From: a bacterium
Lineage (GTDB): Bacteria > SZUA-182 > DTGQ01
DNA length: 64,000 nt
Assembly (NCBI GenBank): GCA_023512255.1
Contig: JAILZY010000007.1
Coordinates: 11,226 to 75,225, forward strand
Direction: 5' to 3'
A program made the position numbers and the translations under genes. Of this stretch, positions 2,012-49,261 are shown piece by piece (positions within the stretch are counted from its first letter, which is position 1; every line of letters begins with the position of its first letter). The notes beneath the pieces were generated by a model, which saw nothing but the letters and a program-made list of their open reading frames with translations, was not told where the DNA came from and searched no databases.

Positions 2012-3577
2012 ATGGATTCATCTATTGGCATCGGTGCATCTCATTTACAAATCTTGATACCGGTTATTATGATAGCCAGCGCACTCCTGGTTCCCCTAAT
2101 CTCTAGGGGCAACCCGAGGTATCGCCTCCCGCTGGTCCTTCTGGTTACTGCAGCTGCCTTTCTTGGTTCTGTAGACATCCTGGTAAAGGTTATCCTCTCC
2201 CCTACTGGATATCTCGAATATATGGCCGGGTATCAATGGGGGGGAAAGAGTCTTCTTCGGACAGGCCAGCCGATCGGTATTGTCCTTCGCACGGATCTTC
2301 TCGGAGCCATCCTGCTGCTTTTGATCAACGGCATTGGTTTTCTAGTGACATTGTATTCCTGCAGATCCGCTCACCATGAGGTGCCAGAGGGAAAGCAGCC
2401 CTATTATTATACCCTGCTGCTGCTAATGCTGGCCGGCATGTCTGGGATCGCTATAGCCGGCGATTGCTTCAATTTCTACGTCTTTTTTGAAATTGCTTCT
2501 ATCAGCTCCTATACTCTAGTCTCTATTAGCGGACGACCGGAATCGCTTGAAGCTACGTTCAAATATATTCTTACCGGTGCCTTGAGTTCGATCCTCATTG
2601 TTTTCGGCATCGGGCTTCTGTTCAATGCCACTGGAACACTCAATATGTATTATGCCTCCCAGCAGATTGCTAAAATTGTCAGCTCCCATCCCGAATCGCC
2701 CCTCTTTCCCTACCGATACCTGATTTATGCCTCTCTGGGACTATTCATCATGGGGTTTAGCATCAAGGCTGCCTTTTTCCCCAGCCATGCCTGGTTAGCT
2801 GACGCCCATCCGGCAGCCCCATCTTCGATCAGTGCTCTTTTATCAGGTCTGGTGGTCAAAACAACTGGAATTTTCCTGCTCATTCGCTTCGTATTCACGG
2901 TTTTCGGGATTCATAAAGGCTACCTAGGAGAGGTTCTCTCTGTGCTCTTTTTGATTATCAGCATCATCACCATTATAAGCGGCTCGCTTTTTGCTATAGT
3001 CCAGACTCAATTGAAAAGAATGCTGGCCTACTCAACCATTGCCCAAATGGGCTACATTCTTTTCGGTGTAGCCCTGGTCACTCCATACGGGCTGGCTGGA
3101 TCTATTCTCCATATTGTTAATCATGCCATAGTCAAGAGCTTGATGTTTCTGTGCGCTGGAATAATCCTGCACAAAACAGACATCAGGGATATAACTGATA
3201 TGGGAAGATTGGGATATAGAATGCCGGCCACTATGGCCTGCTTCACCATCGGAGCCTGTTCGCTGGTTGGGGTTCCTCCCATGTGCGGCTTTATGAGCAA
3301 ATGGGTTTTGGCTACTTCAGCTATTCAGGCGGGCATGCCCTATCTGGTTATTATCCTTTTGATCAGCAGCTTGCTGAATGCGGTTTATTATTTCCGGGTA
3401 GTGGCGATCAGCTATTTTGGAAATCCGAAGATAGAGATAGATACCGTCGATGAAGCACCGAAGACAATGTTGGTGCCGGTCTGCATATTAGCCGTATTAG
3501 TCATTATCCTGGGAGTGCTGGTAAAATATCCTTATCATGCTGCCGCGTTGCCCGCGGCTAGGTTGCTGTTAAGGTAA
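2012..3577 (+). CDS. mnhD: Antiporter subunit D no. 1 (NuoN/MnhD-like)
   Basis: 521-aa polytopic protein of the proton_antipo_M family. Key charged residues are present: Glu in FFEIASISSY (TM5), Lys in GFSIKAAFFPSHAW (TM7), Lys in GLVVKTTG (TM8) and Lys in HAIVKSLMFLCAG (TM12). The longest open frame starts at a GTG at 1907, but that adds 35 hydrophilic residues not typical of the family. The ATG at 2012, preceded by GAGGCAG, gives the expected hydrophobic N-terminus, so that start is chosen here. It follows mnhC after an ~190-bp gap. It would carry one of the ion channels of the complex. Confidence 0.88.
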   Translation: MDSSIGIGASHLQILIPVIMIASALLVPLISRGNPRYRLPLVLLVTAAAFLGSVDILVKVILSPTGYLEYMAGYQWGGKSLLRTGQPIGIVLRTDLLGAILLLLINGIGFLVTLYSCRSAHHEVPEGKQPYYYTLLLLMLAGMSGIAIAGDCFNFYVFFEIASISSYTLVSISGRPESLEATFKYILTGALSSILIVFGIGLLFNATGTLNMYYASQQIAKIVSSHPESPLFPYRYLIYASLGLFIMGFSIKAAFFPSHAWLADAHPAAPSSISALLSGLVVKTTGIFLLIRFVFTVFGIHKGYLGEVLSVLFLIISIITIISGSLFAIVQTQLKRMLAYSTIAQMGYILFGVALVTPYGLAGSILHIVNHAIVKSLMFLCAGIILHKTDIRDITDMGRLGYRMPATMACFTIGACSLVGVPPMCGFMSKWVLATSAIQAGMPYLVIILLISSLLNAVYYFRVVAISYFGNPKIEIDTVDEAPKTMLVPVCILAVLVIILGVLVKYPYHAAALPAARLLLR

Positions 3578-3668
3578 TTTGTTTTAAGGCAAATAAAAAG
3601 GTATAAGAGGTGCTCCCCGGCTTTAGTTGAGTATATTTTTCGGACAGCTCGCTAAGGAGAAAACGATT

Positions 3669-5246
3669 ATGATTAAAAGCTATCTTCCTTTATTAGTAGT
3701 TATGTTCCCTCTTATTGCCATGATCTTTCGCCCCTTTGTCCAGAAGCATCGGCTTTATCATTATACGGCTATTGTCAGTGGCGTTACCCTGCTCCTCATT
3801 CTGGCTATGTATCCGGCAATTGTCGACGGGAATATCCTCGATCTGACCCTGGATACGGGGCTGGGATTTAATTTCGTTTTCCGGGCTGATCTGCTTGGTC
3901 TTTTCGTCGGCCTCATCTCGGTAGTGCTATGGACTTTGTCTTCAATTTATAGCATTGAATATATGCGTCACTCTCACGCTCATGCCCGGTTTAACATCTT
4001 CTCTCTCCTTTCTCTCAGCGGAATGATGGGGGTAGTCTTTACTGGAAATCTTTTCACTCTTTATATATTTTTTGAACTTTTAAGTGTGGCCTCGGCTATT
4101 CTTGTCTTCCATGAAGAAACCCCCGAGGCTATGAAAGCAGGCTTTAAGTATCTATTTCTGGGAATCGCCGGAGGACTCGTTCTGCTTTTTTCCATTATCA
4201 TGACCTACTATCTTACCGGAACAGGAGATCTTACCCTAATCGGCCTCGGATTGCAGGGGAGCAAGTGGCTGCCATGGATCTTCTGGGGCTATATCATCGG
4301 CTTCGGGGTCAAGGCCGGCATGTTCCCTCTGCACATCTGGCTTCCTTCAGCTCACCCGGTAGCTCCCTCAGGAGCCAGTGCGCTTCTCTCAGGCGTTATG
4401 ATTAAGGCCGGAGCATATGGAATTTTTAAAACCATCTACCATATCATTGGCTATCAGGACATGGTCAAAAATCACATGGGTCTTATGCTGCCGATGCTGA
4501 TCATCAGCCTCATAACCATCTTTCTTGGGTCAGCCTGCGCCATCACCCAGACGGAGATCAAAAAGATGCTGGCCTACTCCAGTATTTCACAGATCGGCTA
4601 TATCATCATGGGATTTTGCCTCCTGGCCCCGCGGGGCATCGTTGGGGGCATAATGCACATTTTTGCCCATGCCCTGATGAAAGGGACCCTCTTTATGTGC
4701 GCTGGGGCATTTATCTATAAAACAGGTCTGCGCAACCTCGAAGACCTTAAAGGTATTGGAAGGAGAATGCCTTGGGTTACCTTGGCTTTCAGCATCTGCG
4801 CCTTCTCAATGATCGGGCTGCCACCCTTTGTCGGTTTTATCAGTAAGTGGTTCTTAGCCCTGGGAGCGCTGGATATGATGAAAATGGGGAATTACTGGCC
4901 AGGATTTGGAATAATCGCTCTGCTGACCCTGCTGCTCAGCAGTCTACTGAATTTGGTCTACTATGGCCCGGTGGTCATCGGTGCCTGGATGCAGCCAAGA
5001 GTCGAGGCACAGACGCAGGATGATGAGACTGTGGCCAGCGATCATAATGGCGAAGCAAACCATCAGGCTCAGCCGCCTATGGTGGCCTTAGCTGATCAGG
5101 GAGCAAAGGAGCACAATAGTGAAGATCCCAATTGGGTCATGCTGACCCCAATTTTAATTTTGACTATGGCTGTTTTGGTCTTTGGCATCGCGCCAGGGAT
5201 TCCACTTAATATTGCCTGGCAGATCTGCCATATATTTTTCCCCTAA
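3669..5246 (+). CDS. Antiporter subunit D no. 2 (NuoM/MnhD-like)
   Basis: 525-aa polytopic membrane protein with the full antiporter signature: FFELLSVASAILV (TM5 Glu), GFGVKAGMFPLHIWLPSAHP (TM7 Lys), GVMIKAGAYG (TM8 Lys) and HALMKGTLFMCAGA (TM12 Lys). The open frame extends to a TTG at 3627, but the ATG at 3669 has AAGGAGA upstream and begins directly with the first helix. A hydrophilic loop rich in Asp, Glu, Asn and Gln (about residues 450-490) lies before the last helix, which is unusual. It is clearly a paralogue of the genes at 2012 and 8952 and most like the latter, suggesting local duplication within the locus. Confidence 0.88.
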   Translation: MIKSYLPLLVVMFPLIAMIFRPFVQKHRLYHYTAIVSGVTLLLILAMYPAIVDGNILDLTLDTGLGFNFVFRADLLGLFVGLISVVLWTLSSIYSIEYMRHSHAHARFNIFSLLSLSGMMGVVFTGNLFTLYIFFELLSVASAILVFHEETPEAMKAGFKYLFLGIAGGLVLLFSIIMTYYLTGTGDLTLIGLGLQGSKWLPWIFWGYIIGFGVKAGMFPLHIWLPSAHPVAPSGASALLSGVMIKAGAYGIFKTIYHIIGYQDMVKNHMGLMLPMLIISLITIFLGSACAITQTEIKKMLAYSSISQIGYIIMGFCLLAPRGIVGGIMHIFAHALMKGTLFMCAGAFIYKTGLRNLEDLKGIGRRMPWVTLAFSICAFSMIGLPPFVGFISKWFLALGALDMMKMGNYWPGFGIIALLTLLLSSLLNLVYYGPVVIGAWMQPRVEAQTQDDETVASDHNGEANHQAQPPMVALADQGAKEHNSEDPNWVMLTPILILTMAVLVFGIAPGIPLNIAWQICHIFFP

Positions 5247-7010: not shown

Positions 7011-7090
7011 AGCAGCATGTGGTAGTAGTTTTTTTCTGAAGTGTTTAGTGAGCAGCATGTGGTAGTAGTTTTTTTCTGAAGTGTTTAGTG
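7011..7090 (+). repeat. Two perfect 40-bp tandem copies
   Basis: Positions 7011-7050 and 7051-7090 are identical. The unit begins AGCAGCATGTGGTAGTAG and ends GTGTTTAGTG, and a partial third start (GTAGTTTTTT) follows. It lies just before the histidine kinase start at 7119. The unit is not a CRISPR repeat since there is no spacer. Confidence 0.95.
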
Positions 7091-7118
7091 GTAGTTTTTT
7101 GAGGTATTTTCAGGATTT

Positions 7119-8876
7119 ATGAATCTTTCGATTACTCAGAAGCTGGCGATCGGATTTTTGACCATTGCCTTCTCTACGGCTGCGGTCGGCACCTTGGCTT
7201 ATGTTTCCCTGCTGCGGATCGGCTCTGAGCTTCAGGTGGTTGTGGCCGCGCCTTTAAATACTGCATCGGCCAGGGACAGAGAAATTGTTCAACGAGTCAG
7301 GCGGTTAATTAGGCAATCGGCCCAAGATAAGATCATTCTTTTCGCTGGCATGATCCTGAGCTTTATCATTGCCTGGTGGGGATGGCTATTTTTATCTCGC
7401 CAGGTGGCCGATCCGATTATTTCTTTAACCCAAAAGGCTGATCTGATCAGCCAGCAGAGCGGCAAATTACATGAGACAGTCGCCACCAGCGGCCAGGATG
7501 AGACCAAAAAGCTAGCCAGGGTCTTCAACCAGATGAGCGCCTCCTTGCAGGAGCAGCAGATGGAGATCGAGAGGATTAATCGGGAACTAGAGAGGCGAGA
7601 TCAGCTATTGGGTGAAGCCAATGCCAAACTGGAGCGACTGAATGCCATGAAATCGGATTTTCTGTCAATTCTCTCTCATGAGCTACGCACGCCGCTCACG
7701 GTAATCAAAGGGTATCTGTCGCTAATGAAAAATCAGCGACTTGGGCCAATCAATGAACAACAACTAAAAGGGCTGACCATAGCTGATGAGCGAGCGGATC
7801 ATCTAAATAGCCTGATCAGTGACCTGCTCGATCTGTCCCGGATCGAATTGAATAAGTATGAAATCCGGCAGGAGGTTTGGGATTTGGCCAAAATGGCCGA
7901 GGCTGCTGTCGATTCTATGCGGCCATTATTTGAAAAAAAGGGGCTGCGATTCAAAACCCATATTCCGGCTGAGCTTCCGCTGGTTTATGCGGATAAGCAA
8001 AAAGTTTCTCAGGTGCTCACCAACCTGTTGAGTAATGCTATTAAGTTTACGCCAGCCGGAGGAGAGGTTATCCTAGAAGCACTCCCCAGCGTTGAGGAGC
8101 GAAGCGGTGAAGAGAGCCGGCCAGAAGGCGATGATTTTGTGCAGATTAATGTCAAAGATACTGGAATTGGTCTGGCAGAGGAGGAAATTCAGAAGATTTT
8201 TGATAAGTTTTATCAAGTAGATGACTCGGTAACTCGAGAACATAGCGGCAGCGGTCTTGGGCTTTGCATTGCCAGAAATATCGTCGAGTTACATCATGGC
8301 CGGATGTGGGTCAAGAGCCGAAAAGGAGAGGGAAGCACCTTTTCCTTCACCCTACCCAAAGCTGACTCTAGCTTAATGACTGAGGCGAAGGCCGCGCCCT
8401 CGGCCAAAGAAGGAAAGCCGCTGTTTAGCTTGTCAGCAGCCGACAAGAAGGTCAGCTCAGATAGCCGAAAGAGGCAGGAAAGCGGCGGCGAGGATATGGC
8501 TGAGCGCAGCATTCTGCTTGTGGATAATAATCCTCTCATCCAGCAGTTAATCATAACCTGCCTCAGTGCTTTGCCCTGCAAGATCATAACCGCTAGCGAC
8601 GGGATCGAGGCCCTAGAGAGGGTGTTTCAAACCCCTGTGGATTTAATTGTGCTCGATATCAATCTCCCAAGGCTCAGCGGCTATGATCTGTGCCAGATTA
8701 TCAAAACAAATGAGAAAACCAAACACATTCCAGTTGTCATTCTCTCGGCCTCTGCCCAGCGATCTGAGATCGAACGCGGCTTTCAGATGGGAGCAAATGA
8801 CTATATCACCCACCCCTTCGTACCGGAGGAGGTAGTAAAAAGAATTCACAACTTGATGATAAGCAAGACAGCCTGA
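7119..8876 (+). CDS. Hybrid sensor histidine kinase (HAMP-HisKA-HATPase-REC)
   Basis: 585 aa. Two membrane helices (about 11-34 and 67-87) enclose an extracytoplasmic loop of only ~35 residues, too small for a usual sensor domain. HAMP and coiled-coil regions follow, then the H-box SILSHELRTPLTVIKGY with the phospho-acceptor His at about 187. The ATPase domain has NLLSNAIKF (N), DTGIGL (G1), FDKFYQ (F) and GSGLGL (G2). A C-terminal receiver (about 465-585) has VDNNP in place of the usual DDD cluster, Asp in VLDINLP, and THPF where the conserved Lys-Pro is expected. It probably phosphorylates the adjacent regulator (5938-6948). Its place inside the antiporter locus suggests sensing of ion or energy state. 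Confidence 0.9.
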   Translation: MNLSITQKLAIGFLTIAFSTAAVGTLAYVSLLRIGSELQVVVAAPLNTASARDREIVQRVRRLIRQSAQDKIILFAGMILSFIIAWWGWLFLSRQVADPIISLTQKADLISQQSGKLHETVATSGQDETKKLARVFNQMSASLQEQQMEIERINRELERRDQLLGEANAKLERLNAMKSDFLSILSHELRTPLTVIKGYLSLMKNQRLGPINEQQLKGLTIADERADHLNSLISDLLDLSRIELNKYEIRQEVWDLAKMAEAAVDSMRPLFEKKGLRFKTHIPAELPLVYADKQKVSQVLTNLLSNAIKFTPAGGEVILEALPSVEERSGEESRPEGDDFVQINVKDTGIGLAEEEIQKIFDKFYQVDDSVTREHSGSGLGLCIARNIVELHHGRMWVKSRKGEGSTFSFTLPKADSSLMTEAKAAPSAKEGKPLFSLSAADKKVSSDSRKRQESGGEDMAERSILLVDNNPLIQQLIITCLSALPCKIITASDGIEALERVFQTPVDLIVLDINLPRLSGYDLCQIIKTNEKTKHIPVVILSASAQRSEIERGFQMGANDYITHPFVPEEVVKRIHNLMISKTA

Positions 8877-43770: not shown

Positions 43771-43940
43771 ATGAGAAAGACGACCATTGAACTTACTGAG
43801 GAGCAGTATTTTCCCCTTAAGGAGAAAGCCTTAGATCTTAAGAAGCAAAATCAGAACCTCTCCATTGTGTCCATATCCGGGCCCTAATTGAGAAGAATAG
43901 ACAGAAGTGGATGGAGAGGGAGAAGGAAAAGCGAGGATAA
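43771..43940 (+). pseudogene. Frameshifted ribbon-helix-helix antitoxin-like gene
   Basis: The first frame encodes MRKTTIELTEEQYFPLKEKA then LDLKKQNQNLSIVSI and stops at 43885-43887. Joining to another frame at 43878 restores RALIEKNRQKWMEREKEKRG, ending at 43940. The joined product matches small RHH antitoxins. One lost base at ATATCC (43873-43878; ATAATCC would restore it) explains the break. No toxin gene follows; the methyltransferase starts right after the second part. Confidence 0.65.
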
Positions 43941-43945
43941 CAGTC

Positions 43946-45745
43946 ATGCATAAACTTTCAGAGCAGGAGATCGAAAGGATCGTAAACCTCCTAAGGGAAG
44001 GCAAACACCTACCAGAGGACTACAAGGCGATCCTCTTCGACACCAAGAAGGAATACGAGCTTATCTACGCCGACAAGGAGCGGGAAGAGGACATTCTGGC
44101 GGACACGATGGCCGTGCCTCTACAAAAGGTCAAGACCTTCCGAAACGGACAAGGCGGTAACGGTTGGACGAATATGCTCATTTTCGGCGACAATCTTCAG
44201 GTGCTCAAAACCCTGCTGCAAATGAAGCAAGAAGGGAAGCTCAAGAACGCTGACGGCACGCCAGGGGTGAGGCTGGTTTATATTGATCCGCCGTTTGGAA
44301 CTGGGGATGAGTACATTATAAGCAAAGGAGCATCTGCATACTCCGCTAAAACGATGGGGGCACGGTTTATCGAGTTTTTGCGAAAGCGGCTAATTTTTCT
44401 CCGTGAAACTCTTGCGTATGATGGCAGTATCTATGTGAGGATTGATTATCATTTTGGTCATTATATCAAAGCAATCATGGATGAAGTCTTTGGTCCAGAA
44501 AACTTCCAAAACGAAATTGTGATTAATCGGTTTAAGAGACAGTTATTAAATATTACCCGCTACAACGTGGCAACCGATTCATTGTCTTATTACACATTGT
44601 CTTCCGATGCTGTTTTCAATGAACAATATCGTAAACGCATTTGCTCATTCTGTGGGAGTGAGGCACCACCACAATGGAGAGGCATGAGTTCGCCTGGTTT
44701 AAGAAATCCTCCGGAACGAATCATCTTGGGGAAAAAGTTACTACCGCCACGTGGAAGACACTGGACTTTTACACAGCAAAAAATTAGTCAGATGGAGGCG
44801 GAAGGTCGGATACGAATAAACGACAGTGTACAGTATGTTGACCTCGATGGAAAAAGGATCAAGGGATTACCTGAGTACCTACAGACAGAAGATACTCCTA
44901 TTGATTCAAATTGGACTGATCTTAAGGGTTACGTCTTTGGAGCAAAGTATCCTACAGAAAACCCGGAGGAACTTTTACGGCGAGTTATTTTAGCCTCTTC
45001 CAACCCTGGCGATCTTGTCCTTGACTGTTTTGCTGGCTCAGGCACGACCCTTGCCGTGGCGGAGAAGTTAGGCAGGCGTTGGATTGGAGTAGATTGTGGC
45101 AAACTTGCCATTTACACCATGCAGAAGCGGCTCTTAAACATCGCCGAGAGCAAGGATTGGGAGAATACAAATAAGAAATACGGCAAGCCTCCCAAACCTT
45201 TCACCCTCTACAATGCCGGCCTATATGACTACAAGATGATCAAGGGACTCCCCTGGGAGCAATACAGGGACTTTGCCTTAAAACTCTTTCAGTGTCGGGA
45301 TGAGCGGCATGAGATTTCCAAGACTGAACTGGACGGCTATTTGGGGGCAGACAGCGTCATGGTCTTTAACTATCAGAAGCACAAGGACGCCGTGTTGGAC
45401 AGGGACTTTATTGACGACCTGCATAAAAACCTTGGGTCTAAAATCGGCAGACGCTTCTTTATCATCGCCCCTGCCGCTTCGGTGCAATTTCTTGAGGATT
45501 ATATTGAGAAGGGTAATACAAAATACTTTATCCTCCGCATTCCTTACTCCATTATAGAGGAGATACACAATCGGGGCTTTACTAAGATCAAACAGCCGGT
45601 TAGCGAAATGGATGTCAACGATACAGTGGATGCCGTAGGCTTTGACTTTATTCAGGTGCCGACAGTGGAGTGCCAATACTCCATTAAATACTTTACTGAT
45701 AACACGAAGGGGCAAATGAAGTTAAAAATGCGAATTAAGGGTTGA
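43946..45745 (+). CDS. mod: Type III DNA methyltransferase Mod, 3' end displaced by an insertion
   Basis: About 599 aa from the ATG at 43946 (the frame extends to a GTG at 43907). Motif IV is VYIDPPFGTGDEY (Asp114), and motif I is LDCFAGSGTTLAVAEKLGRR (about residues 360-380). This IV-before-I order is the beta class of N6-adenine methyltransferases used in type III systems. The reading frame ends at 45745 in MRIKG, and a downstream stretch (46258-46476) supplies a typical Mod C-terminus (LSMVMLDYDFDGEVFDLDEV), interrupted by a transposase fragment. Both catalytic motifs are intact; Res-contact or folding functions of the tail may be lost. The res gene follows. Confidence 0.85.
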   Translation: MHKLSEQEIERIVNLLREGKHLPEDYKAILFDTKKEYELIYADKEREEDILADTMAVPLQKVKTFRNGQGGNGWTNMLIFGDNLQVLKTLLQMKQEGKLKNADGTPGVRLVYIDPPFGTGDEYIISKGASAYSAKTMGARFIEFLRKRLIFLRETLAYDGSIYVRIDYHFGHYIKAIMDEVFGPENFQNEIVINRFKRQLLNITRYNVATDSLSYYTLSSDAVFNEQYRKRICSFCGSEAPPQWRGMSSPGLRNPPERIILGKKLLPPRGRHWTFTQQKISQMEAEGRIRINDSVQYVDLDGKRIKGLPEYLQTEDTPIDSNWTDLKGYVFGAKYPTENPEELLRRVILASSNPGDLVLDCFAGSGTTLAVAEKLGRRWIGVDCGKLAIYTMQKRLLNIAESKDWENTNKKYGKPPKPFTLYNAGLYDYKMIKGLPWEQYRDFALKLFQCRDERHEISKTELDGYLGADSVMVFNYQKHKDAVLDRDFIDDLHKNLGSKIGRRFFIIAPAASVQFLEDYIEKGNTKYFILRIPYSIIEEIHNRGFTKIKQPVSEMDVNDTVDAVGFDFIQVPTVECQYSIKYFTDNTKGQMKLKMRIKG

Positions 45746-46257
45746 ATAAATCCATTGTTCTCCTCCGATAAGGGGGTAGATTATTAAACTTGCCACCCCT
45801 ATCGAAAGGAGAGACAATGGATTGGCAAACCCTATTAATCACTGTTTTTGTATATATCAGTGAAAAGTATAAAACCCAGCTTTGGCCTTTTTGCCAAAGG
45901 ATGAGTAACAACAACAATCCCCAATTTAGCGATGAAGAACTGCTCACCATTTTTATTTATGGTGTTATGAAAAAACGTTTCGAGCTTAAAGATATCTACA
46001 ACTACGCCAATAACCACTTGCGGGAATGGTTTCCCAAATTACCTTCCTATGTAGCCTTTGTCCAACGTCTTAATCGGTTCGATAGCCTATTTCCCATGCT
46101 TATTGAACTCATTCTCAATGATTTTTCCGAATCTGACCTCATCCCCCACATCCAGCTTATCGACTCTATGCCCATAATCTTAGCTAAGGCCAAAAGAAGT
46201 GCTAAGGCTAAGGTTGCCAACCAGGTGGCCAATAAAGGATATTGTGCCTCTAAGGAT
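45746..46257 (+). mobile_element. Truncated IS982-like insertion inside mod
   Basis: An open frame from 45826 or 45790 begins MDWQTLLITVFVYISEKYK. It has family-like segments FSDEELLTIFIYGV, LREWFPKLPSYVAFVQRLNR, LIDSMPII (first catalytic Asp) and VANKGYCASKD. It is cut off right after GYCASK, before the last catalytic residues, and joins in frame to the displaced Mod end. The left boundary is near 45736-45790, at the GGGTTGAATAAATCC region. A 3' deletion has removed the other end, so the element cannot transpose on its own. Confidence 0.75.
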
Positions 46258-46476
46258 GGTAATTTAGAAACGCTCTCTATGGTCATGCTGGACTACGACT
46301 TTGACGGCGAGGTCTTTGACCTGGATGAGGTCTTCTACGCTGAGGAATTAAAGAAGAATGGCTACGAGGTGCGCTTTGCCGAGGACAAGGTTAAAGAGCG
46401 GATCATGGTAATCTACATTGATATCTTCGGCAATGAGAAGCGGGAGATAAAGAAGCTCTCTGACTTCAACGGGTAA
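46258..46476 (+). pseudogene. Displaced 3' end of mod, in frame with the transposase fragment
   Basis: The frame continues from the transposase as NLETLSMVMLDYDFDGEVFD, then VFYAEELKKNGYEVRFAEDK and IYIDIFGNEKREIKKLSDFN. This looks like the end of a Mod-type protein (D-G-E-V-F, then Y-I-D-I-F-G-N-E), not like a transposase. The stop at 46474-46476 lies 14 bp before res, the normal mod-res spacing. The fused product (45790-46476) may be made. Confidence 0.7.
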
Positions 46477-46490
46477 AGGAAGAGGTAATC

Positions 46491-48983
46491 ATGCTTGAAC
46501 AACCCTTTCAAAATAAGGACTTAGTCCTTAAGGTGTCCTCCAACTACGACCCGAAGAGGTTTGATCCGAATAAATACGAGGCTTTTTTAGATGCCCTTTG
46601 CGGGGACAGGGAGTATCAGAAAGAGGCCATTCGGGCGACGCTACGCTATTTTTTGGGGGGCGAATACAAAAGCCTCAAGGAACTGGCGGATGAAAACTAT
46701 AACCAAAACCCCAAGCTTCAAGAGAAGTATTCCTCTTTCGAGGATTTTCTTGCGCACCTGCAACTACCGGATAAGCTCTCCTGCTCCCTGGATCATGCGA
46801 CTGCCACAGGCAAAAGTTATGTGATGTATGGCATCGCCCGCATTATGCTTGCTGATGGAGCTATAGATCAGGTTTTGGTCCTGTGTCCTTCTAACACCAT
46901 TGAAGAAGGTTTAACGGAGAAGTTTCGGAGCCTATCCGCTGATAGAACCCTCAAAGACCTTCTGCCTACCGATTCCAAAGTTGCTAATCCCCGGATCATC
47001 AATGCCTCTAACACTATCCAAAAGGGGGACATCTGCATTGAGAACATCCACGCCACCTACAGCAACACCAAGTCGGCCATAGAAGACAGTCTTGTCGGGA
47101 AAGGTGAGCGAACTCTGGTATTGAATGATGAGGCGCATCATTTGATGAGCCCCTCCTCCAATACTGCCCTCAAAAAATGGAAGGAATTTTTACTTGATCC
47201 CAAATACGGCTTCAAATTTATCGTGAATGTTTCGGGCACCTGTTATATTGGGAATGACTATTTCACTGATGTCATTCATCGCTTTTCTTTAAGGGATTCC
47301 ATCGAGAAGAAGTTTATCAAATCTATCCGATATGTGGCGGAGGACTCCTCGGGCAGCGAGGGCGAGAAGTTTCAAAAGATTTACGATAATCATATTGAGA
47401 ATAAGACGGTCAAATATCGCAAGGTTAAACCTATCACCATCCTAGTTACCAAGAACATCGCCGCTTGCAAGCGTCTCACCGATAAACTGATCGATTTCCT
47501 TGCCAAAAAAGAAAATATCAGCAAGGAGCAAGCTGCCAAGAAGGTCTTAATTGTTACCTCTGCCAGCGAACACAAGGACAATATACCTATCCTGCGGAGT
47601 GTGGATGATAAGGACAATCCCATTGAGTGGATTACTTCCGTCAGTATGCTCTCCGAAGGCTGGGATGTGAAAAATGTCTTTCAGATCGTCCCCCATGAAG
47701 AACGGGCGTTCAATTCAAAGCTCCTTATTGCCCAGGTCTTGGGAAGAGGCTTGAGGGTGCCTGAGGTTTACAAGGGCAATCAGCCTGTAGTAACCGTTTT
47801 CAATCATGATAAGTGGTCAAAGAAAATCAAACACCTGGTAGATGAGGTTCTGGAACTTGAGAAGCGCGTATACTCTTATCCTGTTATGAAGAAAGAGGAT
47901 TATAACTTTGACCTTTACAACATTGATTACAAGCGTAACGAGGAGGAGGTTGAATACCCGCAGAAAGACCCCTATGAACTCCTGAAAAATGGTTACATCA
48001 ACTATTCGAGCCAGGCGGAGAAGGTAGAAAAGAACACAATCTATGCCAGGGCAGTCTCCGGCGAGCAGGATATCAAAAAGACGCTGATTGAATTAAAGAT
48101 GTATTCCATTGAAGAAGTAGCGCACGATGTCTTTAACCGTCTTTTTATTTATGATCAAGAGGCAGGAACGAGCTATAGAGAGCAGTTTCCTAAGGACAAG
48201 ATTGCAGAGATAATCAAGACCTCTCTTGAACGCATTAGCGACAAGACTGGCAAGCTGAGCGAGGCGAACCGTAATCAGACCCTAGCAGCATTTAGCGTGA
48301 TTAGAAGAAAGGGAGCAAAGAGCCTACGGCTAAGTATCGAAGACAAGGAACTCATCAAAATAAGCACCAGAAAAATCGGCAAAAACAGCTTAGGTGTAGG
48401 ATCACTTCGGCGTTATAGCACGGTCTTTTACGATGATTATTCCTTAAGCCTGGGGGAGGCGGCGGATAGAAAATTGCTAAAAGAGCTTGAGGAGGATGAG
48501 AGCCTTCCAAAATCTGCCCTGATAAAGGTGGAGAATAAATACAACTTCAAGACGCCTCTCAATTTGGTCCTGGTTTCCTACGAACCTGAACGCAGGTTTA
48601 TCCTGGGGTTGACTGACAAGCAGACAGCCAAGGAAATAGATGCCTGGATTAAGTCCCTCGATGTGGGTTTCTACAGTATCGAATACTCCTGGCGGAAGGG
48701 AGAGCATCCCAAGCAGGGAAGTTTCAATCCTGATTTCTTTATCAAGAAAGGCAATGACATTGTTGTAGTGGAAATTAAAATGGACAACGATGTATCCGAT
48801 GAGAATAGGGCTAAGCTCAGGTATGCAAGGGAGCACTTTGCCAAGGTAAACGAGTTGCAGCAGGAGCAGAAGTATTATTTCAAATTCCTCTCCCCGGGGA
48901 GCTTTGACCTATTTTTCGAGGCGCTCAGGAACGGCGCTTACAAGGACTTCAAATCCGAGCTTGAGAGAAAGTTAGAGGAATAG
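46491..48983 (+). CDS. res: Type III restriction enzyme Res subunit
   Basis: 830 aa. Helicase-like P-loop DHATATGKSYVMYG (about 100-113), DEAH box VLNDEAHHLMS, SAT-like NVSGTCY, and motif VI QVLGRGLRVPE. The C-terminal nuclease is PD-(D/E)xK: FNPDFFIKKGNDIVVVEIK. It cuts DNA in complex with Mod after ATP-driven translocation. The gene is full length, with GGAAGAGG upstream of the ATG at 46491. With an interrupted Mod, the Res subunit could be inactive, or dangerous to the cell if it still associates. Codon use does not stand out strongly by eye. Confidence 0.9.
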   Translation: MLEQPFQNKDLVLKVSSNYDPKRFDPNKYEAFLDALCGDREYQKEAIRATLRYFLGGEYKSLKELADENYNQNPKLQEKYSSFEDFLAHLQLPDKLSCSLDHATATGKSYVMYGIARIMLADGAIDQVLVLCPSNTIEEGLTEKFRSLSADRTLKDLLPTDSKVANPRIINASNTIQKGDICIENIHATYSNTKSAIEDSLVGKGERTLVLNDEAHHLMSPSSNTALKKWKEFLLDPKYGFKFIVNVSGTCYIGNDYFTDVIHRFSLRDSIEKKFIKSIRYVAEDSSGSEGEKFQKIYDNHIENKTVKYRKVKPITILVTKNIAACKRLTDKLIDFLAKKENISKEQAAKKVLIVTSASEHKDNIPILRSVDDKDNPIEWITSVSMLSEGWDVKNVFQIVPHEERAFNSKLLIAQVLGRGLRVPEVYKGNQPVVTVFNHDKWSKKIKHLVDEVLELEKRVYSYPVMKKEDYNFDLYNIDYKRNEEEVEYPQKDPYELLKNGYINYSSQAEKVEKNTIYARAVSGEQDIKKTLIELKMYSIEEVAHDVFNRLFIYDQEAGTSYREQFPKDKIAEIIKTSLERISDKTGKLSEANRNQTLAAFSVIRRKGAKSLRLSIEDKELIKISTRKIGKNSLGVGSLRRYSTVFYDDYSLSLGEAADRKLLKELEEDESLPKSALIKVENKYNFKTPLNLVLVSYEPERRFILGLTDKQTAKEIDAWIKSLDVGFYSIEYSWRKGEHPKQGSFNPDFFIKKGNDIVVVEIKMDNDVSDENRAKLRYAREHFAKVNELQQEQKYYFKFLSPGSFDLFFEALRNGAYKDFKSELERKLEE

Positions 48984-49261
48984 ATAGATTGATGGAAATT
49001 AACCGATGCCCCGACACCGAAGCCTGAATCTAAAGAAGTTTATTGGATTCAATACCTGAGCCTCTGATTGAGGAGTATTTCAAGCAGAAGATTGAAAGGA
49101 TTCTTTTCCCCTCAAAATTTTTGACTACTACCTGCCAGGATGTCGCCAAATCTGCGCCTTTGCTCCTCCAATTAAAGATTAATAAGTGGCCGGAGCCTGC
49201 GTTCAGTCAAGATGGGCGAGGGCAAGGGATCGCTAAGAGCAGCAATGGCTTTAATGGATAA

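Follow-up and report, generated by a model that had tools for sequence, protein, structure and literature searches.

The window, a stretch of 64,000 nucleotides, carries on its forward strand a mod gene, a fragment of an insertion sequence and a res gene in close succession. The mod reading frame initiates at GTG43907 or ATG43946 and terminates at a stop codon at 45743-45745. Native Mod sequence, with a Pfam N6_N4_Mtase match (E 6.7e-36), occupies positions 43946 to 45726 and extends to about residue 593. It abuts a 531-bp stretch (45727-46257) that is the left part of an element of the IS982 type, and the closing letters of the mod frame (MRIKG plus the TGA stop, 45728-45745) lie inside the left repeat of that element. 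A second reading frame (45817-46476), initiating at ATG45817 with AGGAG upstream or alternatively at TTG45790, encodes 147 amino acids of transposase followed by 72 amino acids that run to the Mod C-terminus; the displaced tail of Mod takes up positions 46258 to 46476. The res gene (46491-48983) begins 14 bp beyond the end of this frame. It encodes a full-length protein of 830 amino acids, 88% identical over its whole length to the Res protein of an intact relative, L032.

The locus is a broken member of the type III restriction-modification family. The first Mod piece runs from the N-terminus through motif IV (DPPF), the target recognition domain (TRD) and motif I (FAGSGTT) into the C-terminal domain, most of which it keeps, and is 50-74% identical to its longest Mod relatives. 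Sequence and the Pfam PF01555 match show the order typical of a beta-class Mod, with DPPY/F preceding FxGxG and the TRD between; the motif does not discriminate between m4C and m6A specificity, since m4C type III Mods likewise carry DPPY/F (PMC8259958). In PADLOC the protein matched MTase_III at 1.6e-56, with one MTase_II model scoring higher (7.6e-64). The adjacent Res has SF2 helicase motifs and a PD-(D/E)XK motif (Walker A, DEAH and a PD-ExK-like sequence being visible in the alignment), a PF04851 (ResIII) match at E 4.5e-15 and a weak PADLOC REase_III match; no solved relative of Res was found by sequence at E 0.001. A beta-class amino-methyltransferase with motif IV before motif I, next to an SF2 helicase-nuclease Res, is also the arrangement of EcoP15I-type systems (Mod2Res1; PDB 4zcf). 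Unlike in those systems, Mod is not contained in one complete chain here: its C-terminal domain is severed, about 25 residues are lost, the C-terminus lies on another reading frame and the fold match covers the methyltransferase core only. No backup copy of Mod was found elsewhere in the genome, where the other matches listed were weak and partial (33-34% identity).

A search of the genome collection for relatives returned 25 loci. In five of them (L030, L031, L032, L033 and L035) a single reading frame of about 650-700 amino acids spans both Mod pieces. The 71-amino-acid tail (46261-46473) is 84-90% identical to the Mod C-termini of L028, L029, L031, L032 and L033, and in the last three it forms part of one uninterrupted Mod chain; in L032 it corresponds to residues 575-645, at 90% identity. 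Identity is lower in L030 (57%) and L035 (49%). Annotated plasmid systems of Curtobacterium, Mucilaginibacter and L. fermentum have the same mod-res order, the same Mod C-terminus and a Res that is 40-50% identical over its full length; unlike the gene in the window, their mod genes are uninterrupted. Since the tail is present in the intact relatives and in the plasmid systems, it is the true C-terminus of Mod, displaced. Among the relatives aligned, no intact Mod ended at the position equivalent to 45745, and none of those searched showed a comparable split.

The element begins at 45727 with AATGCGAATTAAGGG, as does the copy in a genome of the same genus (G001), to which it is 90% identical over 45727-46255. 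Its left edge is formed by the repeat AATGCGAATTAAGGGTT. In a genome of the same family, G003, this repeat is found at either end of MITEs of about 125 bp (L063/L066 and L068/L069), which identifies it as a terminal inverted repeat. At the right boundary, a copy on another contig of the same genome (C84) reads AAGGAT followed by ATCTACTATTACGG, whereas the window reads AAGGAT followed by GGTAATTTAG, which is mod sequence; the other copies of the element diverge after AAGGAT, so none of them encodes a normal transposase with this C-terminus. A second, right-hand terminal repeat was looked for near the remnant and found to be absent, as is the right part of the element. Thus, of the two terminal repeats and target duplication of a complete insertion sequence, the left repeat alone is present, as would be expected of a truncated remnant; the element is classed as IS982-type and not as a complete insertion sequence. 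The NCBIfam IS982 transposase model NF033520 gave E 1e-16 and 61.3 bits, below its 130-bit cut-off, the match covering profile positions 1-108 of 243 only. The three copies found in the source genome are all truncated or degraded, and no complete copy was found there or in the same genus. The G001 copy (L054, contig C87) also lacks the transposase end and continues without a change of frame into a host reading frame, which has a signal-peptide-like start.

These boundaries bear on the sequence-only reading, which had proposed a type III mod gene split by a truncated IS982-like element, with the catalytic motifs kept in the first part and a transposase fragment continuing in frame into a Mod-type C-terminus 14 bp before res. 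All of this is borne out: the relatives hold both pieces in one chain, the remnant of the element lies between them, motifs IV and I are both on the first piece, and the second frame is open to 46476 with a tail that matches the relatives and lies at the distance from res that had been given. Mod had also been taken to end at 45745 with the transposase following. The stop codon is indeed there; however, the element starts already at 45727, so the mod frame ends inside it and the last five codons and the stop are letters of the element. One expectation failed outright, namely that excising 45746-46257 would restore a single protein. Joining 45745 to 46258 retains the TGA, and excising the element from its true start (45727-46257) produces AAG GTA ATT TAG and so meets a TAG. 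The reason is twofold: alignment to L032 and L031 places about 25 codons (L032 residues ~549 to 574) in neither piece of the window, and the reading frames differ (43946+3n for Mod, 46258+3n for the tail). The conclusion that this is one gene, now split, was nevertheless right.

The neighboring genes are damaged as well. A 56-amino-acid reading frame lies directly upstream of mod, intact, in L032, L028 and L031; in the window the corresponding stretch (43771-43937) is a remnant that is frameshifted near 43875 and matches the L032 frame by tblastn in two pieces in different frames. In L032, res is followed by a gene with a 179-amino-acid frame; in the window, broken remains of it lie beyond res (48990-49095), and these too match by tblastn as two short pieces that do not share a frame. 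Judged against the few relatives that show which genes an intact cassette contains, the cassette thus looks broken at both ends; single-base lesions at the locus could be sequencing errors.

Structure predictions for the intact L032 Mod help to locate the lesion within the protein. The model of the whole protein (mean pLDDT 65) found its best matches among type III Mods, 6k0w (Z 21.1, rmsd 4.9, 265 residues aligned), 4zcf (Z 20.0, 3.9, 243) and 7dsu (Z 19.8, 6.3, 281), which cover the N-terminal and methyltransferase parts only. When the C-terminal region was modeled on its own (mean pLDDT 72, with blocks averaging 76-91 over most of residues 161-270 of this model and 56 near 191-200), a terminal beta-sandwich was predicted at L032 Mod residues 531-640. 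According to this model, strand 1 of the sandwich remains on the first piece, strand 2 (L032 553-562) is deleted and the remainder is on the tail. The N-terminal domain, the catalytic core and the TRD are spared. A fold search with the sandwich returned middling Ig/FN3-like matches only (Z 6.7 at most) and no link to the EcoP15I C-terminal domain (CTD). The damaged domain corresponds by position, rather than by any fold match, to the domain through which EcoP15I ModA contacts Res; in that enzyme the CTD of ModB is solvent exposed and dimerization proceeds through the N-terminal and methyltransferase domains (PMC4490356). By this analogy, recruitment of Res may have been lost and methylation possibly retained.

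Taken together, the locus is very probably a decaying, restriction-negative type III system. The ancestral cassette would have consisted of mod and res, preceded by a small gene. In the simplest history, an element of the IS982 type landed in mod close to the 3' end of the gene, and a later deletion would have taken the right part of the element together with some 25 neighboring mod codons, by chance placing the Mod tail in the reading frame of the transposase and leaving a Mod short of its last ~100 residues. An in-frame fusion is the outcome of one junction in three and selection is not needed to account for it; most likely, the apparent fusion protein is an accidental by-product and no new machine. 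Against decay, Res, the first Mod piece and the fusion frame are all open, and branch counts gave no excess of amino-acid changes (N) in the first Mod piece or in the tail; therefore, either the lesion is recent or parts of the locus are still constrained. For res, the branch leading to the window counts 33 N/26 S versus 17 N/38 S on the L032 branch (Fisher p 0.0085), which weakly suggests relaxed selection on the gene; it does no more than suggest it since the count is not clearly different from that of the L031 branch (34 N/39 S).

The sequence-only reading had pointed to the risk of an intact Res beside a crippled Mod. This is sound in principle, in that phage P1 mod mutants with an r+m- phenotype destroy the host chromosome, Mod also serving to stabilize Res (PMC3874151). 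For the same reason, a persistent r+m- state is unlikely for a locus carried on the chromosome of a living cell, and the risk does not seem to apply here. The remaining states are r-m- and r-m+, with r+m+ through reassembly much less likely. The r-m+ state, a functional variant of the decay reading with the same anatomy, is a possibility to which a minor share of probability can be given: the truncated Mod would dimerize, bind and methylate its motif without recruiting Res. Its N-terminal domain, methyltransferase motifs and TRD are intact, and the branch counts show no relaxation of the first piece; furthermore, the domains used for EcoP15I dimerization are those that remain, one of the two CTDs of that enzyme being exposed (PMC4490356), and Mod generally methylates alone (PMC8259958). 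On the other hand, the cut falls inside the predicted C-terminal fold and may destabilize the protein, and in some type III systems Mod requires Res for methylation (PMC8259958).

An assembly chimera joining a copy of the element to mod is highly improbable. The genome is indeed in 172 contigs; however, the other copies in the assembly are ~94% and 86% identical to the remnant and thus offer no long exact overlap. With no near-identical copy in the assembly, the junction is unlikely to be an artefact; moreover, the left edge is the true terminus of the element, and mod sequence flanks it on both sides in order. Scarcely credible is a working split methyltransferase, which had been offered as the alternative to inactivity and in which the first Mod piece and the transposase-tail chain would reassemble to restrict and modify: both frames are open, the start codon at 45817 has a good ribosome-binding site and the tail is conserved at 90%, but one predicted beta strand and some 25 residues occur in neither chain, 147 amino acids of transposase are fused to the tail, both ends of the cassette are damaged and relatives with such a split were not found. 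A two-chain Mod whose transposase-derived N-terminal extension carries the tail, acts in trans and controls Res is equally hard to credit.

R-M pseudogenes are common, with R-M genes lost by frameshift, deletion or insertion (PMC5797395, PMC9465063), and an IS-disrupted one is of an ordinary kind; the locus differs from such cases in that the residual element is in frame with the severed tail. Searches of open-licence papers for type III mod genes disrupted by transposons and for fusions involving IS982 listed no title on a transposase-Mod fusion. The locus provides a clean example of R-M decay, with a full-length and potentially dangerous Res beside a broken Mod. Should the truncated Mod still methylate, it would be a single Mod protein in which modification has been naturally uncoupled from restriction.

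Lesions of other kinds occur in close relatives. The mod genes of L009 (619-2544) and L029 (4965-7100) are broken by single in-frame stops and that of L028 (797-2855) by a change of frame. It seems that Mod is often inactivated in this group, or else these three lesions are assembly errors. Gene content next to mod varies too: L031 has an HNH-endonuclease gene between mod and res (7069-8715), L028 has a reading frame that shares the start of that gene (2833-4479), and in L009, the relative from G046, a different gene of 233 amino acids (2558-3259) follows mod in place of res.
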